Positions 1-18,460 of a stretch of DNA of 21,506 nucleotides are shown here, in pieces. How positions within the stretch are numbered: the stretch's first letter is position 1; each line of letters starts with the position of its first letter. The notes below the pieces were generated by a model. That model saw only the letters and a program-made list of their open reading frames with translations, had not been told where the DNA came from and made no database searches. This DNA comes from Jaapia argillacea MUCL 33604. Lineage: Eukaryota; Basidiomycota; Agaricomycetes; Jaapiales; Jaapiaceae. Location of the stretch: assembly GCA_000697665.1 (NCBI GenBank), contig KL197788.1, forward strand, positions 50,092-71,597, given 5' to 3'. Both the position numbers and the translations under genes were made by a program.

Positions 1-310
1 TTTCCAGGTCATGTGACCTGCCAAACAGCACCAAATCCTCTGCCTACCCTAGTGCAATTTATTCTGATTTTTCCTGATTTTTAGTGATTTATTCTGCTCT
101 TTTATTCCGCTTTTTCTGCTATTTACCATTTTAGGTAGCTAGCTATATATGGACATCCCCTGAGTCAGGTCCACATGGTCCACATGGTCCCAGCAGGTCC
201 TAGCTGGCCAAGCTATGCCACTGCCTGTGGACCTGGGACTTATTGCAATAGATTTGCTGGGGTTTATTGCAATACACTCCTAGCCATTTGCTGGTATAAT
301 TGCAATTATA
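1..310. other. AT-rich non-coding edge with short palindromes and direct repeats
   Basis: No gene is supported here. The stretch starts with a 7-bp inverted repeat, CAGGTCA-TG-TGACCTG (5-20). It continues with T-rich imperfect repeats built on TTTATTCTG (about 56-120), a doubled ATGGTCCAC motif (about 168-190), and two copies of TTATTGCAATA each followed by ATTTGCTGG (about 239-296). This pattern resembles the subterminal repeats of a DNA transposon end, but no terminal inverted repeat pair or target duplication can be recognised. A 77-codon open frame at 175-408 has no convincing coding character. Confidence 0.4.
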
Positions 311-698
311 TTACAACAGCGGCTGATAAGAACGGATACCCCCTAGCTGAACAATTAAGTAGGTTAAACGATGGAAAAATCACAACAGGGAATGAGCATA
401 CCTGGTAGCACTTTGGAGGAGGGGCTGGTGGTGCATCTCCTAAAGAGCCACTCGGTGTTGAATCAAAGGATGCGAGAGACGTTTGGACTCTCTGCCGTTT
501 TTTCGGGGGCTGATCGATTTCGATTTGAGTCGTCTTCCTTGTTGAGGCGTTGGTGCTCAGGCTTTGGTGATAACCAACTTCGGAGCCACTGGCACCAATG
601 AACGTGGATATCCCTGGGCGCTTCTGGGGATCGTTGGGTTGAGAGGGTGGATTGGGGTGGGTAGGATTTCTGGAGGGGTTTCCTTGGGAGCGAGCCAT
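311..698 (-). pseudogene. truncated nuclear protein fragment with NLS, possibly transposon-related
   Basis: On the minus strand an ATG at 698 opens a Pro/Ser-rich reading frame (exon 698-402, 99 codons). A plausible 55-nt GT-AG intron (401-347) follows, then a 12-codon second exon that stops at 313-311, giving about 110 residues. The protein has a basic nuclear-localisation-like run, PPKKRQRV, followed at once by QTSLASFD. That resembles a degenerate PCNA-interacting box but lacks its second aromatic residue. The frame runs into the AT-rich, repeat-bearing edge of the window, so the 3' part is probably missing. N-termini of this kind (disordered, NLS) occur in transposases and in DNA-maintenance proteins. 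No catalytic domain is present, so no function is assigned. Confidence 0.35.
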
Positions 699-929
699 GG
701 AAAAGAAGACAAATTGGCAATGGGAGGGGGAGAGGAAAGAGGGAGTACGAGAGGAAGTTGGGCGGCTGACAGTCAAGCTGCTTCGCTCATGATGAGTGGC
801 ATGGACGCCCTCGCTTTGTCTCAAAGGCCACCTCCCATGGGGTCGACAAGTAGATAACCATGACCCGGTTTCACGTCGGCTCATATCAAAGAAAAACAGG
901 GGATGGGGGGTGTAGATTACAAGGATATG

Positions 930-1220
930 CCTGACTTGAAATTCCACCAATCATTTGATTGGCATTGAGTAGAGCGACGAAGCACCAGTACATCGGAGCA
1001 AGGATGATTGGCCAGATCTCCAAGCATTTAGTCGAACCTCACAAGGCTCAGACAGGCCAAAGAATAGAACACTACGTGCCCTGACATGAAATTCCTCCAA
1101 TTGTCGGATCAGCGTTGAGTAGAGCGATCAGCACTGGTGCGTCAGAGCCAGGATCTCTTGAAGTGTTCAGCTGCACCTCACAACATTTGTGTTCAGAAAG
1201 GCCAAGACATAGAACCTTTG
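930..1220. repeat. diverged direct duplication, period about 150 bp
   Basis: Two head-to-tail copies start at 930 and 1080. Both begin CCTGAC(T/A)TGAAATTCC, then share TTGAGTAGAGCGA, a CACCTCACA/AACCTCACA segment and AGGCCAA-AGA-ATAGAAC near the end (1054-1069 and 1199-1214). Small indels give offsets of 145-150. The copies lie upstream of gene A and contain no convincing gene. Confidence 0.75.
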
Positions 1221-1578
1221 AGACCACTGGCAGCAACAAAAGATATTATCCAGGTGTATTTGATAATGAGTACACAGAACAAATGGACGTGTCTGAGACT
1301 CTGAGTCAACAGACAAGATCTCGACGAGGTAATTGTGATGGCGAGCCAGTGGCTGAAGCACTGAAGGTACCAAACCTTGTTGCGACCCAGAGTCTTTGCC
1401 ACGACACCTTGACGAAACGCTTTGCTCCTCCCCTGCACTGCGCCTCTACTGCCCGTCATTTGTTAGAAAATGCTAGGGCCATGTGTGTCTGCTATATATT
1501 CCCAATCATCTATCAAATCCTGCCAACAACAACTGACTCCCAATCCAAACCTCTTCATCGCCTGCTCTCCCCATCCTT
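1221..1578 (+). promoter_or_regulatory. upstream region of gene A with TATA-like box
   Basis: No gene is supported here. The useful signal is TATATAT at 1493-1499, about 80 bp before the gene A start codon, followed by a C-rich leader typical of fungal 5' untranslated regions. A 155-codon open frame covers 1115-1582, but its composition is unremarkable and it overlaps the duplicated sequence, so it was not called. Confidence 0.45.
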
Positions 1579-2827
1579 ATGACTCCATACACCACCCCTG
1601 CTGTCGAACTGAAGCTGCTCAAGCTTTTCAAGTCGTATGTGAACGGTCACATCAAACTACACCCCACGCAGTATTTGGGTAAACCGTTCTTCACTCAGTC
1701 GAAGCAATGGCTGGTCGACACACCGTGCGCAAACCGTCACACCTTCTCCATCCATTTTGGTATCAAAGCTCCCCTTAGACTTGGTGAGGTTACGGAAAGG
1801 GTACGTCCCTTAACTTTCTTGTATCTAACCCAACACAACCTGATAAACGGTTCGTATGCTTAGTGCCCCAATGGGTGCCGGCAGTTGATTAAGCTGTATC
1901 TGGGTACTCCTCGTATGCAAGACCATCTTTGCAACTTGCAGAGTGTGTATAGGGCTTCAAATGCAGAGGCTTCTAGAAAGAGGAAGAATGAGAAGGCTAA
2001 ACTGCAGCAGGCGGAGAGGCAGGCTCTCCGCGACGGAGTTGGTAAGCTTAGTGTCTATCTCTCATTGTAACTACCCTGACTTAGCGTTCCTGGATGGGAT
2101 TATAGCTCAAAATACACCTCCACCCGAAGAAGACGCCCGTCTCCGACCTGTAGCTCAGTCGCCCACACCCCCACCCCTCCCCACAGCCCTAACTGTCCAA
2201 CCACTGCCCACTTGTTCTCATGGAGTGCAGACCTCCAGTCCTCTCCGCAAACATCCATGCCCATCTCCACTCTCACACCAGCCCATGCTCCTGGAAACGC
2301 ACACCAGTGCATCGTCCTCTCTCGCCGTCCATTTGCCCAAACCCTCGCAGCCTTCATCCTCACAGAAAGTGCTACCTCTCCGCCCTTCACCACCAACAGC
2401 CTCTTCTTCATCGTATCCCTCAGCCCTAATCGACACGCCTTCTTCTTCAAAACTCGTGAACCCCACGCTGCGAAAGAGGAAATGAGTGACCGATTTCACT
2501 GGGATGGACGTCTTGGAAATATGCAGTGACAACGAAGTGTCGCTGAAGAAGGCTCGTCGAACTGAAAGTTGTTTCGTGGACACGTTGGAGGTTTCTAGTG
2601 ACAAGGAGGGGGTTATTGTGGGGAATGGAAAGGCGAAGGCGTATCGATTGGTTTACAACGTTGACGAGGATTTTGATGAGGTAGAAGAAGTTCGAATGTA
2701 AGTGTTCCCTTCAATTATATATCTCAGACATTATGTCGTCTCCACTCCCTTCTGCAGTGGCCGGTGTCTACTTGTTAGAATGGGTTTCTCATCTGGTTAT
2801 TTACTTCTCGTCTTGTTCCGTGGCTAA
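1579..2827 (+). CDS. gene A: unknown basic/coiled protein split by an in-frame TGA
   Basis: Family not recognised. The model has four exons, 1579-1800, 1864-2041, 2085-2697 and 2758-2827, with introns of 63, 43 and 60 nt. All are GT-AG and keep frame, and the last has a textbook GTAAGT donor and CTGCAG acceptor. The first ~74 residues are globular-looking. Residues ~75-133 include CPNGC and a charged helical stretch (RKRKNEKAKLQQAERQALRD) that could form a coiled coil. The third exon is Pro/Ser-rich. At 2483-2485 a TGA interrupts the frame after RKRK. The same frame then stays open for 93 more residues and continues through the third intron. The tail contains DVLEICSDNE and DTLEVSSDKE, which look like acid-flanked SUMO-interacting motifs. 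Length is 266 residues to the TGA, about 360 without it. The TGA is one C-to-T change from CGA (Arg), which would extend a basic run. It is either a recent pseudogene or a protein that ends at the TGA. A TATA-like box lies 80 bp upstream of the start. Confidence 0.6.
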
Positions 2828-3080
2828 AGAAATGTAGTAGTGTATGTTAAAACTTAAACTTATGTCGCTGAAATCCCGACCTTTGCAAAGCAATGTTGGG
2901 TCTCCTGGCTTGGGTATTGAGATGGATGTAATAACTTTAAGTTTATATGCCGAAGAAGCACGGCACATCCACAAATAATAAAAGTGTTCACAATCAACGC
3001 GTCCACAATCCACGTCCACAATCAACAAACTCACGTGTTGGGCCTTTATAAAGCGCCAAAGTTGCACTCTTCAACCCCTC
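2828..3080 (+). promoter_or_regulatory. gene B promoter: MCB-like box, E-box and TATA box
   Basis: The A-B spacer carries a compact promoter just before gene B. It has ACGCGT at 2997-3002 (the MluI cell-cycle box bound by MBF-type factors in yeasts), tandem TCCACAATC-type units at about 3002-3027, a palindromic CACGTG E-box at 3032-3037 and TTTATAAA at 3045-3052. The gene B ATG follows 30 bp later, which implies a very short leader. The earlier part (2828-2980) holds only the presumed 3' region of gene A. Confidence 0.5.
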
Positions 3081-3081
3081 A

Positions 3082-4824
3082 ATGCTCCCCCCTTGTGAGT
3101 TTGTTCCTCCTTGTCATTGGCCGTGGTCAAGGACTTTGCCTGAGCTGCACGTGGACCCAACTTTGGAGACCACAGAATGTGAGGGTTGAGACTGCCTTGA
3201 TGCACAGCCAATTGTAGCCCCTTCTCGTCTAACTCCACCTTCTACCCTTCAGACTGCCCCGTCCCTGTATCCCAGGCTCCTATAGCGCCAACTCATTCGG
3301 TGAGTAACCCCTGCTCAACACCCTTTCTCAGCTTATCTTATCTTATCTCACTAGCTCCGATCTGGAAAGGAGTTCTCGCCGTGGTCCTTTGCATCTATCG
3401 GCGTCCTGGTTGAGCTTAATTTCAGCAATCTCATTCACCTGGCCTTTGTACAGGATGTCGTCACCGATCTGTGCAAGCCCGATGACGACGCACCTCACGA
3501 CACCCCCTCCCCCTTGGTGCACCCCCTCAACAACGACAACGCCCTCGCTCCCAAACCCGTACCACCTCCCATCCAACACGAACACCTTTCTCACCAGAAG
3601 AAGCACAGTTGAAACAAAAGGGACAAGGGCCGTGTGTCCACTCAACTCATCGAAGTACAAGCGTCGAAGGAAGGCAAAAGGGATCCATACGGATCTCGAA
3701 ACCGAGGGCCTTTCTGTGTCTTCCACTGGCTGGGAGGGGGGAAGGGCGAAATTGAGGGATCCAGAGAAGGAGTATGGGTTGGATGAGTTGAAGGGAATGG
3801 GGTTTGAGGTGGTTGCTTGGGATGGAGTGTGAGTCGCCTTGTTTTCTCAGACAAACTCTCACCTGACTCAGAGTCCCTTCTTTCAGGGAGCCAAGCGCAG
3901 TCGTGGATGCAGATTCCACCGTAGTTGCTGTGCTCGCAGGCCACCCTCGTGGTCAGGAGTTTATCGACCAAGTTACTGCCCCCCTGTTCTCGGCGATGAA
4001 TTGTACGCACAAGCGATGCATTTTCTCTACTGAGAAACATCGGCGTGGCCATTTTGCCGCCGTCAATGTTGGAATTTCTCGTGGGCCTGGGTCAATGGTA
4101 CGCATCTCCTCACAGATTCACTGCCCTTCTCTGAGGCCGCTTCCAGGAACCTGAAACCTTGCGCGTTGATCCCAAGAATCAAGTTCCGATTGAGGAGCTG
4201 CTCAAGGAGCCCTCCTTGAGGCGTTTGGTGGGCTTTACTACCAGTACGTTCTGACCGTTTGAACCCATTACTGGCAGCTTGATAACCCGAATCCATCTAG
4301 ATGCCTTCAATTTATATGCTCCGCGCCTGTACAAGTACTACCGAACGACCCTGGAGTCGCTTCTTCAGTGGAAACCGACTCTTCGCCCTTACCTTCCAAA
4401 CTCACCCTTCTCTGCCTGTACGTTCAACTTTGGTCCTAACGTTCAGACATTTATCCACACGGATCCAAAGAACTTACTGTGGGGTTGGTGCGTTGTCACT
4501 GCCCTTGGTCGCTTCAACCCCAAACACGGCGGCCACCTCATTCTGTGGGATCTGAACCTGGTGGTTGAGTTTCCACCTGTCTCAACACTCTTTATTCCCT
4601 CTGCGGTCATTCGTCATTCGAACGTTCTGGTGGCAGCAGGCGAGCAACGACTATCTTATACCCAATACACTGCCGGTGGCGTTTTTCGTTGGGTCAAGTA
4701 CCGCTACAAGTCCGTTGGGGAAGTTGTGAGATCAATTGGAGAGCTAGAGGTCCGGCGACTGAACGCCAGTCGATGGAAGGCCGGAATAGAGATGTTCTCA
4801 AAGTTAGGAGAGCTCTCTGAATGA
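3082..4824 (+). CDS. gene B: 2-oxoglutarate/Fe(II) dioxygenase-like protein, candidate TET/JBP type, with a 1-nt frame lesion
   Basis: Six exons: 3082-3178, 3253-3299, 3355-3828, 3887-4097, 4147-4243 and 4301-4824. Introns are 74, 55, 58, 49 and 57 nt, with good branch points such as CTAAC and CTGAC. The product is about 482 residues once one extra nucleotide in exon 3 is allowed for. The N-terminus is short and Pro-rich and leads to LRSGKEFSPW. A basic linker (KYKRRRKAKG) and a conserved-looking GFEVVAWDG segment follow. The C-terminal ~170 residues form the catalytic-looking core: FNFGPN, then HTD (~361-363, DNA 4456-4464), GWC, GGHLILWDL, IPSAVIRHSN with His ~414 (DNA 4615), and Arg ~425 in EQRLSYTQY. 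HxD...H plus an Arg 11 residues on is the iron and 2-oxoglutarate ligand set of this superfamily. The 53-residue His-to-His spacing fits TET/JBP enzymes, which oxidise modified pyrimidines in DNA; that substrate is inferred. Exon 3 changes frame between about 3580 and 3690: the upstream frame meets TGA at 3610-3612 and the downstream frame is +1. Confidence 0.65.
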
Positions 4825-5482
4825 TTCCGTGCATCTGTTTTTCATGTTTGGGCGGCTTGTTATAACATTCAGCCACAGATGTTAGTAGGAGTTCTTAGAT
4901 AGGTTGCCCAGGTGGCATCAACTGGTGCAATATCATTTTCGTGTCTTTCCTTCTGGAGTATGGTGTGCCTCTGGCAAAACCACTTACCCTCTGACTGTCC
5001 TTGCTCGCCTTCAACCGTCCTTGCTTGCCTTCAACGTGCTACTGAATTACGACTTCAGAATCAGCTAAACAATAGCAGTCCGATCTTTTGCTGGCCCTGA
5101 GTGACAATGAATGCAAGACCTGTGCTTGGACCTTGTAATGCCATTGATTGGTTTGCAGCTTGGATGCCGTTCTTTTATCACTGCTTGGGCCTTGATCCGA
5201 CTGTCGGTTGCTTGTTAGCCACAGGCCCAAGCTATGAGTTTGGGCCTTCAGATGTGTCAAGGGGAACAAATGGTGAGCCTCGCTATTGTCTACCTCTTTG
5301 GCCCACCTGCAGAGTGAAAGCGACAAGTGCCACCCATGGACTCTGTTCATCGCTTTCTCTCCCATTTATCCTTGCTGATATTGCCCTTATCGTATCAAGA
5401 CCCCCGCTGTTCCCCCAAACTACCTTTCATTGCAACTCTTTTGTTACAACGACTCCAACCCTTCTTCATCCTCTTGCTCACG
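4825..5482. other. B-C intergenic spacer
   Basis: No convincing gene. It contains a tandem 20-bp repeat, GTCCTTGCTYGCCTTCAAC, at about 4997-5035 and several scattered TTGGGCCTT words between 5185 and 5250. The last ~120 bp before gene C are C/T-rich, as expected for a fungal promoter or leader. No clear TATA box is seen. Confidence 0.4.
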
Positions 5483-7645
5483 ATGCCACCCAAGGTTCCC
5501 CCACTCCCTTCATGGCCTGCCAGCGCTCGTTGATTACAGCCTGGACGACCTTCCAGACATCTTGCGGCGCAAAGGGGTTGCCAAAGACTGGCTGAAAGTC
5601 GACCTTCCCCAATACATGTCGCTAACCGTTCACGGTCAGAAGGCCAGCTACGCCCGAGAACAGGCAGAGCGATTCATTATGGCCTTCCAACTCAGACCCA
5701 GGCAGCTCGACAACGGTACGACCTACGACCCAATGGAAGGACAGACTGTCACTCTGTCTGAGCTGCGAACTGTATGTTGTCCCAGTCTTTCTTTCGGAAG
5801 CTTTCTTATTCATTGCGCCATAGTCCATTACAAGTTGGTACAAAAATGCTCTTGCTCAGGCATCGCCTCAACGAGGCTGTGCGCCCAAGGGCCTTTTGAA
5901 GCTCTCAGTGCTGAAGGAGAAGAGAATCACTGCATTGTCAGTTTTCGTGCAAGAGAAGTCGTTAGAACTAAAAGAGGACATGCATGCTCGCATGCGATCT
6001 CACGGCGTTGACAGTAACAGCCACCAAAATCTACCCCACTGGAATGCGGCACTCCAATCCCAATGGGAGAAGCTCTCTGAGGAGGAGCAGGATGAGTACA
6101 AGAAGAAGGCCGAGGCACACCATCAGAAGAAGGGATCGAAAGGTGAACCTATTGACGACGTTCAGATATTTTGGTGTGCTTTATGCCTTCCTTTCTGTGA
6201 TCCCGTCCATTGCTGACGTTCATGTCGCAGTAACCAAGACCATCTGGCAGAAGGTCTTCAAGATTTCCTCTGGACGCTCCCAGGTTGTGGTGAAGGCCAG
6301 TTTGGAGACATTGTTTTTCACATCCAGCTAGCATTCCGAAATCGAGGAGACATGCTTGTCATCAAATCGTATGCCCTTCACCCTCCCTTTGCACCTGTGC
6401 CCTCAGTCGTAACTCATCTTGTCTATAGATTCGTTGCTGGAACAGGAAGCGAGGAATCCCCTTTCAATCAAACTGAGGTCTACCCACAAGCCTTAAGACC
6501 CTTTCAAACTTGGGCTGCTGCTGCCATCCCTAGTATGTACCTCAGCTAACCAGTTGTCACATAACTCACCTCGCTGCCTCCACCATAGAGAATACTAATG
6601 ACAATGGGTATCTCGATCCAGAAGATCAGCCCTTTTGTGTAACGATTGGTGAGGATGGCCGTGCCCATCTACTGAACGTCGACTTCGACACGGTCACAAA
6701 TAAAGACCTTGCAAACTTGCTCACAACCTATTTCAACATTGAGTGGGGTAAGTTTTCTGCTATTTGTTCAATGGTCGTGGCTTGATTCCATTTCCAGAGA
6801 AATCTCTTCCAGTCGACCCCACATATCCAACAATTCCATGGGAGGAGGTGGAGAAATCGCCATTGAGATTTGTAGCCCCTGGGTTTGATAACCCAATGCT
6901 TTAGTTATTGAAGCAGCCCAGCAAACTAGGAAGATGTGTTCAAGATCTATACGAGTACGTTTCTGAGAACGCCACAAGTTCTCCCTTTCTTCAACACCCG
7001 CCGCCTCCACCACCACCTCGTCCACAGACTCCATCAACCCCACCTCAGCGTCGCTCACCATCTCCAGAGGACCCCCTCCTCTCTTCTCCAGCATTTATGC
7101 TGGGAAAACTTCTGTCTTCACCGCTGACGCCTCCAAGTCGCATCACACCCGAACCAACCAAACCGACATCTGCTACAACTGCTGTCAACCCAACAAACCC
7201 TCTAAATCCCACTCATAACGACGAGCACCCGCTTGCAGAGTCGCAAAACGTCCCATCCACCCCCTATCCACTAAATCCAACCTCCACGGCTACCCATCCT
7301 ATTGGTGCTACTGCCAGTGATGGGAGACTGGGCGCTTCGGGTCCAGATGGGCCAGACAATTGTGCTGCGTCGCCCTTGCACAGTGCTCCACCGCCGCAGC
7401 TGGTTGATTTGACAGGACAGGTGCCGGCAGTCGGTTGGATGACGAGGAGCAAGAAACGAGAGTTGGATGGCAAAGGTGGCTCTACCAATGGAAGCGAGAA
7501 GAAAGCGAAGTTAACTCCATCGGGAGGACCTGCAGAGGAAATGGGAGAGCCGTTGCCAGGACCAGCGTTGGGACGAGCGAAACCATCAACCAAACCTTGG
7601 GGAGGTAAAAAGGGGGGGGTGGGGAGGAAGGGGAAAGCGCGGTAA
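5483..7645 (+). CDS. gene C: HMG-box-like nuclear protein with an early frame lesion and an in-frame TAG
   Basis: Six exons: 5483-5771, 5860-6173, 6231-6368, 6429-6532, 6589-6747 and 6798-7645. Introns are 88, 57, 60, 56 and 50 nt, all GT-AG and in phase. The ATG at 5483 (MPPKVPP) is one nucleotide out of frame with the body; removing one C from the run at about 5497-5501 restores it. Residues ~119-187 resemble an HMG box: ALSVFVQEKS at the start and W-E-K-L-S-E-E-E-Q-D-E-Y-K-K-K-A at the end. This fold bends DNA and occurs in chromatin proteins. A second region begins NQDHLAEGLQ and includes GQFGDIVFHI and the segment up to FQTWAAAAIP; I have seen similar regions in agaric hypothetical proteins but cannot name it. 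A TAG at 6902-6904 ends the frame after ~369 residues, yet the same frame continues for 246 codons: LLKQPSKLGR, a polyproline stretch, QLVDLTGQ (SUMO-interacting core), then a Lys/Gly-rich basic end. TAG is one C-to-T change from CAG. Confidence 0.6.
7612..7633 (+). other. G-quadruplex-type guanine runs at the 3' end of gene C
   Basis: A run of eight G is followed by T, four G, AGG, AA and four G, all on the coding strand. It encodes the Gly/Lys-rich end of the gene C tail and lies just before its final stop at 7643-7645. Four or more G-runs at this spacing can fold as a quadruplex in DNA or mRNA. Confidence 0.6.
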
Positions 7646-8623
7646 CTGCTTGGTACCTGTATCCCGGCTTGGCTTTACCTGTATTAATTAATGAACGCAA
7701 TTTACTTGATCTTTTAAATTCAGGACCCTCTGCGTGGGCGCACACCTCTACGCGGTGCAGAGGACGAGTAGGCATCCACGATGCCGAAACCAAGATGCGC
7801 CCATTCCGTGTGTCTCAGGCAAATCAAGGTTCGTGTGGTGCGACCCATCTTGCAGGCTATGCTGACTTATAATGGCTAGGTCTCGCTACCAGTTGTCCTG
7901 CCAGAGTGTGAGTCAGAGTTGTTCGTCGATAATCTGATTCTCAGTCTCCTGGATAGTCCACTCAGAATCAGCTGTTCCTCGATAATCCGATTCCAAGTCC
8001 TCTTCGATAATCCATTCCACATTCCTTTTCGTCATCTTCATTCTTTGGATTTTCAGCAGTAAATCAGATTGTTCCTCGATGATCTGATTCCAAGTCCTCC
8101 GTAATCCATCCTTTGGATTTTCGGCAGTAAATCAGATTCACGTGAAGACATCAACCAGCCTGGAATTGGTTAACCCTCGATAGACCAACTCGAAGTGAAT
8201 CAGTTTGCCTGGTCAGAATCTGATTACTAGTTTCTATGTACTTAGTCCTCATAATCTGATTGTCTTCGATTAAGACATGCTCAAAACAGCCAATAGTCGT
8301 GTCCTTGTTGAATCTGACACTTAGGATTAATCCGAACCTTGGATTAATCCGAACTAACGACATACTTGCAACAATCTTCCCTCCATTGACCCTCCCTGTT
8401 GCCAGACACATTACTAACACAGGCCTTGGTTTAATCCAGGGGGCCTGCAATTTGGGGGAAGGGATTAATCAAACGAGCTGACATCCCTGAAGGACACCTT
8501 CCAAGAAGCCCAGGACAACGAGGTGATAGGCCTGGTGGCTGCGGATCCATTCCAACCTTCTGTCGGCCTTCTTAGTGTGACAGTCAAGTATTATTTACAT
8601 TGTGCAAAGATTACAAAGTTGAA
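7646..8623. repeat. convergent C-D spacer with degenerate repeats and palindromic ATTA-type sites
   Basis: There is no gene in this ~980-bp spacer between the 3' ends of C and D. From 7917 to 8140 it holds direct repeats: TTCCTCGAT(A/G)ATC(C/T)GATT near 7975 and 8072, and TTTGGATTTTC(A/G)GCAGTAAA at 8044 and 8112. AATCNGATT occurs at 7931, 7984, 8062, 8130, 8217 and 8253. Then GGATTAATCC, a perfect palindrome, occurs twice with the trailing GAAC (8324-8337 and 8341-8354, 17 bp apart). Short open frames here are not convincing as genes. Confidence 0.65.
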
Positions 8624-10288
8624 TCATGATACAACGTCCGCCCCCTCCACATACTCAATGGTGGCAGCAAGAGATTGTAGGGACTTCAGCTGCATCTCCA
8701 GCAACCTACCCTGAGTCTCTGCGTCATTCAGAGTTGCTTGGAGATTGTGATAAGCCTGGAATGAATGCCCAGACTCAAAGACATTCCTCACATCGTTGAG
8801 CAGCTGTGTCCCAATGTGGTGAGACCAGAACACCCCGCGATTGCTAATATCGACCACCCAGCGAGATGGCTGCTGGAAATCAGATTGGTATAAAGTTATT
8901 CTGGGATACACTCACTGGCTGATTGTAATATGACGAAGGGTAAGGTCGCTGATGAGGAGGTGGAAACACTCCCCAGCTTGTCGGATAACGGGGCAGGTCA
9001 TCTGAGGGTCCAGCCTCAGCATTCTCAGCAGATGTGGTGCGAGTGGGTGGCGTGGATTTGGTGAGGTCAATCACATCAACTCCAGGTATCTTGTTTGGAG
9101 TTCTTTCTATCTTGATGCGTTCGCGGAGCTTGGGGGTTGGTGAAGTCAAGTCAATTGCCTCATCCCCTGCATCAACTGGGATAGGCGATGCCTCTGTTCT
9201 TGATGGCTCATCGACGCGCTGGACAGTTTGGATGGAAAGATTGGGGTGTTTGACTATGGTCAGCATTTTGACCTCGATGTCCGAGTTGTCTCTCTTCGAT
9301 GGAATTTGAACCCTCCGCGGCTTGGGTCTACACCACAGTGATGAGGACTTTGGTACGCCAGGAATCTCTATTGCCGGCATCAATGCAACGGGATGCAGCA
9401 TCTCAGAGACAGTCGCGACGCTCAGGGATTGAGGAGGATCTTGAGATTCTGGTCAGAAAGAAAATAATTGTTGGGGGTTAGAAGGAGGAGGTGGCGACAA
9501 GTTGAAAGGGCTGCAGTGCCTAGGCTGCGATTGTGTTGGAGGCAGTGGAGAAAGATCGAAGGGGTCGAGGATGGGAGGATTTGTGGTGTCAGCATCGATG
9601 ACCATAGAAGGCTCTTCGATGTTGGAGCCACTGTCAGCGGCAAGTTGTCGAAATGTTACGGGAGGTGGTGTCAACTCTGCAGTGTCCATGAGATGAGAGT
9701 CGACACCAGTTGATTCAACCAGTTCTTCGTGAGAAGGTGGAGAAGGGGTCAAGTCCATAGGATCGACCTGTTGAGTAGGGGGAGTCATAGGACAACCTAC
9801 AGTCGAATCTTGGACTGGTGATGGTATCCCAAACTTTGAGACGATGGATGGGCTCCTGGCATCGGTTTGCGGGACGATGCACAGTACTTCGAACTCAGGG
9901 TTGAAGTCATCGTTCTTGCCAACGGCTAATGAATCCACCTGACTAGGACTCGGCGACAGGGGACTATGATCTGATGTGCCAACAGTTGAAGAAGCGAACC
10001 AGCCTTCCAAGGAGAATTAACGCACCAAAATTCAACTCGCCTCTATCTATGATACTCAGTGATGGGCTGGCAATTCCTCCATTGACTGGAATATCCCCTC
10101 TCAAACAGCATGGATAATGTTGTACCGGCAGACCAATTCAACCCTTTTATAGGGTTGAAAACAGATGCTGGTGTAGCTTCTGGTGATGCAATGAATCTCA
10201 GCAATGCTGTCAACTTTGGAATTACATGATTCATACCGCGCTCATTGTGCAGAATCTCGGAGTCCTCAGGCAAAAAGCGAGCGTCCAT
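8624..10288 (-). CDS. gene D: disordered D-L-(T/S)-P repeat protein with SUMO-interacting motifs and an in-frame TGA
   Basis: Minus strand, divergent from gene E. The 3' part is firm: exon 8916 upward, a 43-nt GTGAGT-CAG intron (8915-8873) and a last exon 8872-8624 ending in a helical stretch (LEMQLKSLQSLAATIEY). The body (about 10010-8916) is acidic and Pro/Ser-rich, with a short motif repeated: PMDLTPSPPS, AELTPPP, PFDLSPLPP, PFNLSPPPP, then EAIDLTSPTP and DVIDLTKSTPP. The last two match the classic SUMO-interacting core (V/I-D-L-T), and every copy has S/T-P sites for proline-directed kinases. TGA at 9455-9453 splits the frame after LFSF, but the frame stays open for 179 codons plus 82 in the last exon; CGA would be the one-step ancestor. 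The 5' end is uncertain. MDARFLPED starts at 10288 and its frame runs to about 10050, but joining it to the body needs an atypical ~112-nt intron (GTATCA donor to CCTAG), or another lesion. Confidence 0.5.
10140..10156 (-). promoter_or_regulatory. TATAAAA inside a 5-bp inverted repeat
   Basis: On the minus strand TATAAAA (10151-10145) is flanked by AACCC and GGGTT. It lies within the proposed 5' exon of gene D, so it may be only a coding coincidence (NPIKG). If it is a real promoter, transcription would start downstream and the first coding exon of D given here would be wrong. Confidence 0.25.
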
Positions 10289-10499
10289 AGAGGTGTTGAA
10301 AAGCACAATTGAATGGCAAAGATAGCAGAGGCAGAAGTATGCAGACCGTGCGGCAAATGATGAAGTTCAAACTCTCACGGCAATTGTGCGTTTGCCTCGC
10401 GTCCCCATTGCCGGCCGTTCCCAGGAATATCTTGCACTGCGATCTTTGCTACTGCAGTCAACCAACTCAACCCAACCACCACTCTACTCGTCGCATACT
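10289..10499. promoter_or_regulatory. divergent promoter region between genes D and E
   Basis: About 210 bp separates the proposed start codons of D (minus) and E (plus). The E side is C/A-rich (CAACTCAACCCAACCACC) right before its ATG, typical of fungal leaders. No clear TATA box is seen on the E side. Sharing so small a space suggests co-regulation of D and E. Confidence 0.4.
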
Positions 10500-12814
10500 A
10501 TGGCCTCTGTCGAACGCATCAACACTGCTAAGGCTGCACTCAAGCCATTCTCTTATGTACTCTACATGTTCTCTCACCGTGTCAACCTCTGGCACTCCTG
10601 CATTGCCAACGCTACTCCACACAACCTCGAGGCTTGGATTCCTTTCATTGAACAGGAATTCAACGAGTTCAAAACTGCTCTGTCAGCTGCCCAGAACGTT
10701 GTGAATACCTATCCAGATGTTTACCGTCCCCTCAGGCTGACGCGGCTCGTCGCTGACCTGCAATGCATCAAATGGGAAGCAGTGGCGCAGAGGAGGAGGC
10801 TCTCAGCTGCAGACCTGATTGAGCTATCTCGAGATCATTACAAGGCCAGCACCAATTTCTGGAAGGATGAATTGCCAGAATGGGTGCATGATCGCCCCAT
10901 GGCCGCTAAGTTTTGGCTTGTGGAGAATCCTTCTGGTATGTTCCATCTTTATTTCTCAATTTTGTCGCTGACAGATTCCAGCTCCATCTGTCGATCCTCA
11001 GATGATCTCCGGTGATGTGACCCCTGTCTCTACTCCCTCCGGCCACCTTATCCCACCTCCACCTCAACTCTCTCCAGGTCGCATCCCTGCTGTGGCAAAA
11101 GGCAAGGCCAAAGCCGATGCTCAGGACGTTCAAATGGAAGATGCCGATAAGACCGCGGAGAGGGAAAGTGAGGAAGAGGCTGCAATTGGACAGGAAGGCG
11201 AGTTAGAGGATGAGGAGATGGATCTGGGCAACGATGGTGAGGACGTCCCAATGAAGTCTGTGGAGGGCAGAGAGCACGCGGCTGGTTCATCAAGGCAGAA
11301 GAAGCATCCCGCGCCAGATTCGCCTCCTAAGGTCACTCCCAAGAGAGTGAAGTCGAAGGATGTGGTGAAGGAGCCTGTTGACATCCTGGATTCATCGATT
11401 TTGGGTTATCCAGATGACCTCACGAAGTCGATGCAGATGATGAGTCTGATATGGTTTTCATGAGACTGATTCTCATATCCCTTAGATGTTTGCTACGCCT
11501 TGTGCCAATTGCGTTCATGCAAACGCCATATGCGCAAACTATAAGACAGGCAGCAACTGCCTCTGGTGCACCATGAAGCACTACATCTGCGAACACAAGA
11601 AGAATCCCTGCGTGGTCATACCCAACCCCCACTTCAATCCCAACACTCAACCCATCCAAGTCATTCGCCCCCCCACCAAGAGCAAGTCAAAGGCCAAGGT
11701 GACCCCAAAGGACGCGGAGCCCATGGGGCTACCAGGTGCCATCTATGGGCCAGGAACCACCACGTTCAGCGGTCTCCTACCCGATGCCCCTCATATCCCC
11801 CACAAGAGGGCTATTGCTGCTGTCGTGGAACCTCAAACCGAGCTGCAACCTGTGGCACCAGTTCGCCCTAAGCCCAGACGAGGTACTGCGAAGGGTAACA
11901 AGCCGGATGTTGATCCTCCCATGGATCTCGCAAACAAATCACAACCTGCCGTGTCCATTCCTCCCAAGACCAAACGAGGTGCTCCTAAGGCCACTTTGCC
12001 AGATGTCAATCCTCCGGCTGTCGCGCAACCACCCAAGAGACCCAGTTGGTCCAAAAAGTCTGCCAAGTTGAAGGAGGTTATCGCTGACAGTGAGGAGGAC
12101 ATCGCTGAGCCTGAGCAGCTGAAGGCACCCCTACAAGAAGGAGGGAAGAGGTTGCAGCTCATTGTTCATCTCCCACCAAAGCCGAAGCCCATCGCCGGCG
12201 GTAGCAGGATCATGACCATAGGTAAATTTGCTGCTACTTTAGCTTGGCAGAGCTCATATACTCAATTTCGACTTTGAACACATGGATCCGAAGGTAAAGA
12301 TTCAAGGTGAGGGTTTTGAACTTCCTTTGAATCTTTAAAGGTTAACCTTTTTGCTTTTGTAGTGTCATCCGCTGTGTTGGACGTTCCAATGTCTTACCCC
12401 ATTGTTCCCAAGTTTCAAGATCGTGTTGCAAATGCAGTTGGAATTCTACTGGTGAGTGTCGCATCCCTTTGTTGTCATCTTCTGCTCACAAATCTCATCC
12501 CATTCCAGCGAACGCAAGATGAGCTTGATGTGATGATCCAAAGAGCCGTTGACAAGGCCGCGGAGAAGATCGTCAAGCAGGAGTTGCAGCCCCTCCACGA
12601 TGAAGTCGCCACCCTCAAGGCCAAGTCCAGGAAGCTGGAAAAGCTTTGCGAAGAGCTTTCAACTGAGGTTGACTCAACTAGGAAGGGTCTGTCGGATCTC
12701 CGCTCCGTCGCGATTACCAGTGATGACATTGTGAGGCTTGAGAAGGCTCATGACGCTGAGATGTGTGAACTGAAGAAGCGTGTAGGGTTTTATGTGTCAT
12801 TGCCGCAATCTTGA
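10500..12814 (+). CDS. gene E: Zn2Cys6-type cluster protein with acidic region and C-terminal coiled coil
   Basis: Start ATG at 10500 (MASVERINTAKAAL). Exon 1 is 10500-10935, intron 46 nt, exon 2 from 10982, then an exon 11486-12221, exon 12363-12451, a 57-nt intron, and the last exon 12509-12814. Exon 1 (145 residues) is helical and Trp-rich, family unknown. Exon 2 is basic then strongly acidic (ESEEEAAIGQEGELEDEEMD). The 11486 exon opens with six cysteines spaced CX2CX6CX8CX2CX6C, the spacing of fungal Zn2Cys6 DNA-binding clusters, but in mid-protein. A Lys/Pro-rich linker follows, and the last ~100 residues form a long charged coiled coil (LQPLHDEVATLKAKSRKLEK). The exon 2-3 link is open. 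A GTGAAG donor at 11365 with a strong CTGAT...TAG acceptor (121-nt intron) keeps frame. Otherwise a 1-nt lesion near 11425 would restore an acidic VDADDESDM segment. The 12222-12362 intron (141 nt) may hide a microexon. About 649 residues in the first model. Confidence 0.55.
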
Positions 12815-13471
12815 GGCTGTGTTCATTTTTGTGGTGTCCAATTCCTTCTTGTAGTTATCCTGCTTCCCCGCTGTGCTCCGCATTCTTTGTTCTGGATTGT
12901 TTTAATTGTCCCTGTCATTGTATCTACTCACTGGTAAAATTCTCAAAGATTTTTTGTCGGTTGTTAGGTTCAGTACTACTCCCTCTGGCGGTCTTGCAAA
13001 TGTCTCGCAATGTCAACCAATATTTCAGGAGGTTATCACTGTTTTATTCTATCATTGCCGGCATCCAATCATTGTTCACGAGTGTGCAGTCGCATTTGAA
13101 CATTCAGGACTAGTAACATCCATGACATTGTTCACCGCACATTTTGCACTGCCATTGCCTGCAGAATTATGACCCAGCAGATTGGGCTAAGACACTTTCC
13201 AATAGCATCATCACTGGCTACAAGTCTCGCAATCATGCCAGTGTAACATGCGGTCGTCCGCATATAATTTCCTGTCAATATCCCAGTTTGCCGGGCTACT
13301 GCTGGTCCCTGCAAGCATTACCATGGAATGCCTGACAACCGCGAACCACGAGTCATTGCTCAAAATGCGAAGGATTGCTATGACAATCCTATTGGGTCTC
13401 ATAGCATTAGCAGGTCCCCAGCACCCGCCCAAAAAGACGATAATCTGCTACAGGCACTGTGAAATATATAG
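12815..13471. other. spacer right of the gene cluster
   Basis: About 650 bp with no supported gene. Open frames of 60-100 codons exist on both strands, but none has introns, a promoter or convincing composition. The sequence includes the presumed 3' region of gene E and passes into the repeat array at 13472. Confidence 0.4.
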
Positions 13472-13679
13472 GTCGGCTGAGCCATTACTAATGAAGTGTC
13501 GGCATTGTTGGCTGAGCCATTACTACTGGTTCAGCAGCCTAATGGTCTAAGTCGGCTGACACACTACTAATGGCATGTCCGCTGGGCCATTAACAATGGG
13601 CCGCAGACACATGTCGGCTGAGTCCACTGGCACATTAACAATGGTCAATATGCATGGTCCGCTGGCCATTACTACTGAA
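13472..13679. repeat. degenerate tandem array with core GTCGGCTGAGCCATTACTAA
   Basis: About six units begin near 13472, 13498, 13551, 13577, 13613 and 13658. Each starts GTCGGCTG or GTCCGCTG (the second has an insertion after GTCGGC) and ends CATTACTAATG, CATTAACAATGG or a variant. Unit lengths vary (about 22-53 bp), so this is an old, eroded array and not a clean minisatellite. Confidence 0.7.
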
Positions 13680-13691
13680 AAAAATAGCTGA

Positions 13692-14929
13692 ATGGGTTGT
13701 TCCATATCCGATCAGGCTTGCCAAGGCAACAACCGCAGATCTCTATTAGCCACCTCGGGGTTGGACATTGTCGTTTCCAATCCGCTACTGACCTTGCAGA
13801 GTTCAGAGGCTTCTACATCCCCAAGTGATGTGTTCCTTCAGGTTTACGGAGCCTCAACACTCAACGCCTCCAGTCTACCTTCATCTCACACTATGGGTGG
13901 CTGCTCCTTGTTGTCGGCTCAGAACCTCTCACCTGAAATAGCTGCATCCAAGCCTACTGGCAAGGAGAATTCAACGGTAGGCCTCAGGCTCAGTGAACCT
14001 TCACCATGAGCTGCACCTTGGAATTCTATGTCCCCCAGCTCGAGGATTCACCCTATCAACAAGGCGGAAATCCCAGATCCACAAAAGGTGTGAGATCCTC
14101 AGGATCGAGGTGGTCGACAAGTGATGTTGGTCCATAGAGCTGAGCATGCTCAATCCAAGCTATGGTGCAGTCGAATTTGGAAGCCCTGGGTCCAGCGAGG
14201 GTTGTTGTCCTTCCCCTTACCTAGGTGGTTCGGTGATACTGCTAATTGCACTCACAAAGTGAGGAGTCTCGGGCTAGGTTGAATGGTGAACATTTGGGTG
14301 GTCGTGAGGTTCCTCTGCTTCAAACAGCCTGACTCCCTTGGTATTTGTCCACTGCCGCATCCTTGACAAATCCATCATCCCGTCAGTCTGAACTCGGGCC
14401 CACTGTCACAGCCTCTATGTTGCCTTTGGGTACCTCTAACTTTATTGCTGATGATCTCTTGGGGTCTTCATTGCTGAACCTTCAATCACCTGTGAAATGG
14501 ATTGCCGATGCGGAAGCTTCCCCAGGACCTACTGGCCTGGTCAAACCCCTCACAACGGTGGCTAACACGACTGTACGGGATTGTGATTCTGATGTGAACC
14601 TGGTCTTTAGCCCTACACCACCCTCACTCACTACCTCCTCCTCAAGCCATCCACTCTGCGAGGAGACAAATGTCCATGTTCTGTCCCTGTTGATTGGCGT
14701 TACTAAGATAGTGGATCTGCGACCTGCTCTGCTAATAATGCTCTCTCCAAGTTCTCGAGCCCCTGGCCTCTCCTCACCTTCAATGTCACTGATTACCGAT
14801 TCTCCTGTACTACCTGGTCAACTCACTAGTGCTGGCTCAGTCAGCGCCTCTCATTATGGAGGATCGAGCCTGGGGGGCAAACCATCCATTTCAGTTTGCT
14901 CAGCCTCTATAGCCTTTTCGGACCTGTGA
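13692..14929 (+). CDS. doubtful Ser/Thr/Pro-rich ORFs, possible spliced gene or degenerate element ORF
   Basis: Two long open frames, 13692-14009 (105 codons, MGCSISDQAC start) and 14345-14929 (194 codons, no ATG near its start), have similar Ser/Thr/Pro/Leu-rich composition. They may be exons of one gene. A GTAGGC donor near 13977 and a CCCCCAG acceptor near 14038 would lead into LEDSPYQQGG, but the rest of the interval cannot be spliced convincingly. There is no recognisable domain. The start lies directly beside the eroded repeat array, so a transposon-derived ORF is equally possible. MGCSIS fits an N-myristoylation consensus if that ATG is used. Confidence 0.2.
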
Positions 14930-15599: not shown

Positions 15600-16261
15600 A
15601 TGAACATGGATCATCCTCCTAATCCAGTTGGATTGGCTGTGGATTTTGAAGATATGTTTGATGGTAGTGTTGTTTCACCCACCTATCGTCAACTTACAGA
15701 ATATCAGATCCTTGTATGTGTTCTTTGTATCTGCCTTACAGATCATACAATTCATTGTCTACATAGATTTCTTGGAATGCATCTCCAGATGATGAGGAGA
15801 ATGAAAATGGGATTTTAGATGTGCCTTTAGATAATCTCCAACCAACAGATCTTCTACTCGCCTTACATTTCTCCTCCACCATCTTGGATTTCGACAGTGG
15901 TGTCCCACTTCCTGACAATATTGATGGGGCTGTATATGTTTATGGGGTTCACCCCACTGATGCGGTATTTCTTTTTGAACAAAAATGCTGTTGTGCTTGT
16001 TATTGACTGTTATTCTAGGCTGGAGATCATAGTAATCCTCGTTGTCATTGCAAAGGCATTGCTTTCACTGGAAGGTGTCGCAATGGTGGTCGAGAAAAGT
16101 ATTGGGATGCATATGTTCCTATCTATGAGAACAAGGAGGAACTGGATGAAAATTATGTGGCTTTGAGGATTCATCATGAGTTTGATGTTCCTCACGAGAT
16201 GCGTGTCGCGACAGTGATTACATTGGTTGTTTTAACTAGTCTTCAGGACTCTGTCTTCTAA
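15600..16261 (+). CDS. gene F: three-exon orphan protein, 184 residues
   Basis: Family not recognised. Exons 15600-15713, 15767-15964 and 16019-16261 are all phase 0 (38, 66 and 81 codons with stop). They are separated by introns of 53 and 54 nt with GTATGT and GTATTT donors and TAG acceptors. The frame is uninterrupted after splicing, unlike the cluster genes to the left. The protein is acidic at the N-terminus (SPDDEENENGILDVPLD). It has a hydrophobic segment LLLALHFSSTILDFD, then a small Cys/His patch (NPRCHCKGIAFTGRCR), a Trp/Tyr-rich WDAYVPIYEN, and a hydrophobic C-terminus. The CHC...C spacing could bind a metal, but no known finger is matched. It stands alone in repeat-rich DNA, so it could be an element-borne ORF or a lineage-specific gene. 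Its AT-rich codon use differs from the GC-richer cluster genes. Confidence 0.5.
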
Positions 16262-17930: not shown

Positions 17931-18173
17931 ATAGTACAGTTGTCCTCCACCATCTTGCATTTGGACAATATTCCCAAAACTCTTGGTAATGCTGAGGGGA
18001 ATGTGTTGATTCGCAAACTCTACCAGTTTAATGAGTACAATTTTTCACATTTTGTGAATATGGTTGCATTGATCTGTAGAAATAATATTTTGTATCCAGA
18101 TCTTGCTCTTTGTGCAGCCCATTCAGCCAAAAAACCCTATGATAACCCGTCACCTGACGAACATAATACCTGA
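17913..18173 (+). pseudogene. short coding-like fragment with SSTIL motif
   Basis: An 86-codon frame without an ATG start reads like a real protein fragment (GNVLIRKLYQFNEYNFSHFV). Near its start it has QLSSTILHLDN, which recalls FSSTILDFDSG in gene F. The DNA also matches there: TCCTCCACCATCTTG occurs in both, followed by ATTT and GACA. It may be a detached exon of a gene F relative, or the match may be chance. A TTATAG acceptor-like site precedes it. Confidence 0.25.
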
Positions 18174-18460
18174 TGTTAACAAGTCAACCAACATCGGCCG
18201 ACGGTGGTTGATAACCTGTCAGCTGACGCTGGATGGTAATGTGTCGGCCGATGTCAGGAAGCTGGTTGTTAGAGGAGCAGCCGACGAGGGGCTCTGGGTT
18301 AGTAACCCATTAACCGACAAGTAAGGATATAGCTGCCAGGCAGCTATTAAATGGGATTGGGTAGGTATTGTATTGTTTGATAATAGCTCACCAGCCAACA
18401 ATAAAACATTGGGTTGGTAACCTGTCAGCCGATGCTGGATGGTAACATGATAACATCAAC
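18119..18460. repeat. duplicated CTGTCAGC(T/C)GA block with a palindrome between the copies
   Basis: A 35-bp block at 18206-18240 recurs at 18412-18446. Both read GGTTG(A/G)TAACCTGTCAGC(T/C)GA(C/T)GCTGGATGGTAA with only transitions between them. Shorter relatives (ATAACCCGTCACCTGACG, GTCGGCCGATG) lie around them. Between the copies is a near-perfect palindrome, ATAGCTGCC-A-GGCAGCTAT (18329-18347). Confidence 0.7.

Follow-up and report, generated by a model that had tools for sequence, protein, structure and literature searches.

The closest described relatives of the locus analysed here are the TET-carrying Kyakuja transposons of Agaricomycetes. In the available part of the source, Kyakuja elements (Kyakuja-1_LB and Kyakuja-2_LB) are described with 7-bp target-site duplications, CA..TG ends and no terminal inverted repeats (TIRs), and TET genes of the AG type, not the PE type, are assigned to them (Kojima 2025, PMC12730594). 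A second point of comparison is CcTet of Coprinopsis cinerea, in which, according to the accessible portion of the report, the substitution D337F abolishes oxidation of 5-methylcytosine (5mC) and spares demethylation of N6-methyladenine (6mA) (PMC11040006). We analysed a stretch of 21,506 nucleotides from Jaapia argillacea MUCL 33604 (contig KL197788.1, here C80, positions 50092-71597; hereafter the window), whose right edge is the contig end (C80 is 71,597 bp long). An initial annotation had read this DNA as a cluster of five genes, A to E, around a candidate dioxygenase, B, and coding blocks of all five were found about where it had placed them. Very likely, the locus consists of two Kyakuja-type KDZ transposons, element 1 inside element 2, with the five genes split between both. 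Element 1 carries A, B and C and a KDZ/CxC2 transposase that lies mostly left of the window; element 2 has a KDZ/CxC2 transposase of its own, a CcTet-like TET/JBP gene that has decayed, and D and E.

Compared with the TET-carrying Kyakuja as described in the available text (PMC12730594), the locus shares the KDZ transposase, the CA..TG ends, the 7-bp duplications and, in element 2, an AG-type TET/JBP gene. It differs in element 1, where a B-type dioxygenase stands in place of an AG-type TET, the C80 copy has imperfect TIRs, and A and C are cargo, and in element 2, which carries D and E; the words HMG and zinc are absent from the main text of that paper in its available form.

Nesting of the two elements

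Searches of the organism's own genome covered 43.7 Mb on 95 contigs, to which labels such as C1 and C23 refer. Short gaps resembling introns and the presence of KDZ and TET families fit an Agaricomycete. Within the window, the elements and their ends are:

Window 1..8489: right part of element 1 (whole element C80:44633-58580, 13,948 bp, beginning left of the window), delimited by its ends and by an empty site in C1.
Window 8490..13699: right part of element 2, which extends leftward; 84.7-94% match to C1, with a right end that recurs in C1 and C36.
Window 8478..8489: right terminus of element 1, CTGACATCCCTG; the relatives on C23 and C56 terminate in the identical 12-mer.
Window 8490..8496: target-site duplication of element 1, AAGGACA; left copy AAGGACG at C80:44626-44632, 6/7 identical.
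Window 13687..13699: right terminus of element 2, GCTGAATGGGTTG, recurring in C1 and C36.
Window 351..641, minus strand: probable 5' part of the element-1 KDZ transposase gene; 37-44% protein match to C23 and C56.

Contig C1 holds the empty site of element 1. There, sequence matching C80:44631 continues unbroken, with a 6-base overlap, into sequence matching window 8490, and in C80 the two are separated by 13,948 bp; the D-E element of C1 lacks the A-B-C insertion. Because the empty site, the termini and the duplications are all seen, we could assign the order of the elements, their ends and a duplication of about 7 bp.

Both elements have the KDZ and CxC transposase domains expected of Kyakuja/KDZ elements. 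For element 1 the KDZ match (PF18758) reaches 4.2e-30 (L041:4604-5044, minus strand, where L041 position 1 is C80:42092) and a partial CxC2 match 1.5e-18; for element 2 the values are 1.8e-29 and 4.2e-25. The initial annotation saw no KDZ transposase and supposed any mobility to be non-autonomous or of another kind. We rejected a non-autonomous element, since both contain transposase sequence, almost all of which lies to the left of the window; the broader idea of mobile genes in a KDZ and TET/JBP setting held up, with KDZ/CxC2 in both elements and TET/JBP in element 2. In C23 and C56, the CxC2 exon follows the counterpart of window 641-351 (minus) shortly downstream, in the same orientation. 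The window stretch is probably a piece of the element-1 transposase gene (we infer the same-gene identity), and 1,686 bases of N (C80:48406-50091) separate it from the rest.

CA..TG ends are found for element 1 in C80 and C23 and for element 2 in C1. The element-1 insert in C80 opens with CAAGATTGTCAG and closes with CTGACATCCCTG, and its ends are alike at 24/30 positions, the highest value elsewhere, over 39,761 positions, being 21; the ends of its C23 relative (491610-503836) are alike at 17/30, within chance. The check for target duplications that had been proposed gave perfect 7-bp copies around the C23 relative of element 1 (ACAAGTG) and around element 2 in C1 (GTGTGAC; 3336463-3354590, 18,128 bp, CA start, TG end), and the 6/7 pair around element 1 in C80. 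This imperfect pair and the imperfect TIRs of the same copy count against the assignment to Kyakuja, which the available part of Kojima 2025 describes without TIRs. Element 2 in C80 runs from ~32211 to 63790 (window 13699), broken by element 1, and no left duplication of it was found in C80. Because homology to C1 begins only at C80:32211, the outer left tip (~100 bp) of this copy is, by that comparison, lost or replaced.

The TET/JBP gene of element 2 (Tet_JBP, PF12851) lies at C80:39947-40333, scores 51 bits against a cut-off of 34.9 and has two in-frame stops. It reads HRD (HxD) and, at the equivalent of CcTet Asp337, WFD, as in the AG type, and a profile from five such AG-type genes of this genome matches CcTet (7vpn) at 1.9e-22. 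Element 2 has further plus-strand coding-like sequence at C80:42092-44631, common to C1 and C64; the two open reading frames (ORFs) scanned there gave no Pfam family above cut-off.

Recurrent linkage, the check proposed in the initial annotation, proved apt. It was assessed by protein searches with one exon or block per gene as query, and the resulting counts are lower bounds. Exon 1 of A and gene C each occur at no fewer than three places (C80, C23 and C56), the catalytic exon of B at at least 11, D at at least two (C80 and C1) and the N-terminus of E at at least three (C80, C1 and C64); the middle exon of E has at least six matches at five places (C36 and C18 added). The order and orientation of A-B-C are kept at 3/3 places that have C, and D-E recurs divergently in C1; C64 has no counterpart of the C1 stretch that holds D (3340317 to 3342755). 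The recurrence as neighbours anticipated by the initial annotation is thus borne out for A-B-C at three loci and for D-E at two, and not for the full set, which these searches found in C80 only. Its proposal of one co-inherited five-gene chromatin module does account for all five genes lying within 11 kb here, but the two groups recur apart and a transposon end at window 8489 lies between C and D. We find such a module barely credible in general, and in this genome it is refuted because of the C1 empty site. In C56, ~3.4 kb between B and C (C56:14681-18039) is absent from C23 and is perhaps another insertion.

Gene B and the TET position beside KDZ transposases

B-like proteins are probably widespread among Agaricomycetes. 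The copy studied here is:

Window 3355..4824, plus strand: gene B, 2-oxoglutarate (2OG)-Fe(II) dioxygenase-like; catalytic exon 4297-4824.

The HxD...H...R ligand set first proposed for B was found as H54-x-D56 (window 4456-4464; H at 4456, D at 4462), H107 (4615) and R118 (4648), in an exon that is constrained (see below). Across eight B-type copies, window included, HxD is present in 7/8 (C30 has HVN, that is HxN) and the arginine in 5/8. We considered a stop in the N-terminal frame near 3610 as a lesion and rejected this. Because C23, C50 and C56 show a break of the aligned frame at this very point, the break is read as an intron.

We compared the genes beside KDZ transposases across this genome, where 71 matched pieces of PF18758 merged into 41 KDZ loci (the one at C13:749526 rests on a sub-cut-off match). 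A Tet_JBP match lies 1.1-2.1 kb upstream on the same strand at 18/41 loci, three of these matches (C13, C34 and C56) being below the Pfam cut-off. At 3/41 (C24, C29 and C30), a B-type gene, distantly related to B, lies 1.5-1.7 kb upstream on the same strand. B is upstream on the opposite strand at 2/41, C23 and element 1 of C80 (5.0 and 7.0 kb). No single element among the 41 loci has both a Tet_JBP and a B-type gene, and the only locus listing both is the nest itself. Under uniform placement, the chance of at least three of eight B genes falling in the TET position is ~6e-8. A tree of 23 transposase cores (17/18 TET-linked, 5/5 B-linked and one of the others) places the B-linked rows on one side with support 82/57, with the caveat that two long B branches may be falsely joined; 200/200 bootstrap trees need one change, and 1/500 label shuffles is as low in changes. 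In one KDZ lineage, a B-type dioxygenase family appears to stand in for TET. At another 18/41 KDZ loci, neither Tet_JBP nor B is listed as part of the locus's own element over a distance of 8 kb.

We regard a relation of B to TET/JBP as probable. A profile of 12 AG-type sequences placed 6/8 B-type proteins, those other than C28 and C30, above every one of 4000 shuffles (0.022 for the best protein, 3.1 for the best shuffle), and hhalign aligned the metal triad of B with that of TET (E 0.045). Pfam searches of five B members gave scores below cut-off, Tet_JBP in 2/5 (best 0.0048) and 2OG-FeII_Oxy_3 in 1/5 (0.025). Several results weigh against B as a TET relative in the TET position: (i) KDZ is absent from the surrounding 8 kb at 6/11 B matches (C56, one of the six, borders an N run) and at 7/25 Tet_JBP matches; (ii) hhalign gives the B-TET relation a probability of 1.2%; (iii) in the reverse test, which ran a B profile on 12 AG proteins together with 4200 shuffles, a shuffle scored best; and (iv) a profile search of the PDB with B returned no solved structure up to E 10. 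A fold model of B from one sequence (pLDDT 33) was too poor for use, and a search of IMG/VR for relatives of B gave 36 pattern matches, 0 of which were confirmed.

These results also bear on the alternative that the nest is correct but B is a protein or RNA hydroxylase, or another 2OG enzyme, carried for another reason. The missing PDB match and the weak Tet_JBP and 2OG-FeII_Oxy_3 scores favour it, whereas the TET position of B relatives beside KDZ transposases and the ranking of 6/8 B-type proteins above the shuffles speak for a DNA-acting enzyme. We hold this alternative to be rather unlikely.

Compared with CcTet as given in the accessible part of its report (7vpn; PMC11040006), B shares HxD and a second histidine, at a H-to-H spacing of 53 versus 50 (His326 to His376), and differs in having no match to it in the PDB profile search and no acid near the Asp337 position. 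All 8/8 B-type copies read W/A-C-x-V/I there; the alignment of this column is uncertain by one, and the neighbouring columns of the B-type copies are also without any acid. We rejected B as AG type for lack of an Asp at this position, and as PE type because the HxE hallmark is absent (HxD 7/8, HxN 1/8).

The same hallmark bears on whether B has already been described, either as PE-type TET/JBP (Kojima 2025) or as one of the groups of Iyer 2014. The PE type is, in the available text, very distant from known TET and occurs in Agaricales transposons (PMC12730594), which would suit B; on the other side stand the HxD of B (a comparison by stated hallmark) and the report, in the same available text, of Kyakuja with the AG type, not PE (PMC12730594). 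An existing description of B seems quite doubtful to us. Among the literature matches listed, nothing concerned a non-TET dioxygenase, HMG or six-cysteine cargo in KDZ elements, though an earlier mention is possible; TET-carrying Kyakuja are already known, and the B-type occupant looks new.

Other cargo genes, selection and decay

The remaining cargo genes in the window are:

Window 1579..2485, plus strand: gene A, exons ~1579-1800, 1864-2040 and 2085-2482 (limits by eye); relatives in C23 and C56.
Window 5549..7645, plus strand: gene C, with a weak HMG-like stretch at ~5944-6130.
Window 8883..10016, minus strand: gene D, open in C1 (383-aa frame).
Window 10500..12814, plus strand: gene E, with an N-terminal block (10500-10934), a cysteine cluster (11501-11590) and a coiled coil (~12500-12780).

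The catalytic exon of B is under purifying selection. Its ratio of nonsynonymous to synonymous substitution rates (dN/dS) is 0.09-0.10 (wrong-strand control 1.20), with 0.17 for the upstream exon of B and 0.09 for the HMG-like exon of C; synonymous divergence (dS) of B and C exceeds 1 and these values are therefore rough. For E we obtained 0.30 and 0.44 and for D 0.50; four wrong-strand controls gave 0.80-1.20.

In-frame stops interrupt three genes: TGA 2483-2485 in A, where C23 and C56 have AGG and homology runs on to ~2638; TAG 6902-6904 in C, where C23 has CAG and C56 CGG; and TGA 9453-9455 in D, where C1 has CGG. Because relatives have sense codons at these places, the copies of A, C and D here probably no longer work as complete sets.

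The domain assignments of the initial annotation fared unevenly. The CX2CX6CX8CX2CX6C cluster of E is present at 11501-11590, and a six-cysteine cluster fitting a loose pattern is found in 5/5 copies, one at 34% identity. We take its spacing to fit the fungal Zn2Cys6 class pattern; unlike fungal Zn2Cys6 proteins, E is carried by a transposon, and no Pfam Zn2Cys6 family matched it at E up to 1. The HMG-like exon of C stands as a constrained exon, and not as a recognised HMG box (best Pfam E 0.018, 16.2 bits against a cut-off of 22.4). The SUMO-interacting cores proposed for C and D are poorly conserved: LVDLT of C has no counterpart in C23 and C56 (2/2 relatives), and in C1 (1/1) the cores of D are altered from VIDLT to AIDLT and from AIDLT to ANDLT, partly hydrophobic still, which leaves little support for SUMO-dependent assembly. 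No domain was found in D. Gene A (window 1579-1995) has C-x3-H and C-x3-C pairs kept in C23 and C56 at 36-38% identity, perhaps a zinc site.

Most C/T differences between close copies fall at CpG: 98/110 (C1 versus C64) and, in two stretches, 179/204 and 78/93 (C23 versus C56), with 35-42% of CpG sites differing against 0.2-2% of other cytosines. The CpG share is lower in distant pairs, 139/252 (C80 versus C1) and 68/131 (C50 versus C56). This excess was measured in these elements and may hold for repeats here in general. We rejected TCG-type repeat-induced point mutation (RIP): because the C/T rate at TCG (30/76) is close to that at all CG (98/279, C1 versus C64), methyl-CpG decay fits better. 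The pattern suggests that cytosine methylation has acted on these elements.

Right of element 2, the window has plus-strand gene-like exons at 15600-16261, in which two ORFs gave no Pfam family, and a possible end of a further KDZ-like element at 18115-18445. Here CAGCCCATTCAGC at 18115 resembles the element-2 terminus; C23:490376-490912, which matches the stretch at 85-88%, has GCTGAATGGGCTG as its end. Tandem arrays lie near the contig end (18821-19851 and 20362-21040; a ~170-bp unit in 6 copies, plus 44-bp-based units). An Rfam scan of the window gave nothing at the gathering cut-off.

Proposed history and significance

In the history that we propose, element 2, with its transposase, AG-type TET/JBP gene, further coding-like stretch, D and E, was present first. 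Element 1, with its transposase, A, B and C, then inserted just left of D, duplicating ~7 bp. The cargo may help each element against methylation-based silencing, with the dioxygenase oxidising DNA bases and C and E binding DNA, and the copies here are decaying, largely through CpG mutation. With less certainty, B may be a remote TET/JBP relative that fills the place of TET in one lineage of KDZ elements and perhaps prefers a different base. A KDZ lineage with this second dioxygenase family in place of TET, its pocket without the acid on which CcTet depends for 5mC, and acting on 6mA or another modified base in anti-silencing, is a proposal that we offer as decidedly tentative.

The locus, with its empty site, fixes the relative order of two KDZ insertions and shows which genes travel together, and the comparison across the genome points to a dioxygenase family seemingly replacing TET in a KDZ lineage. 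The activity of B would tell if TET-like enzymes carried by transposons are confined to 5mC. If the proposal is true, rival transposon lineages in one genome would use different DNA-oxidising chemistries.

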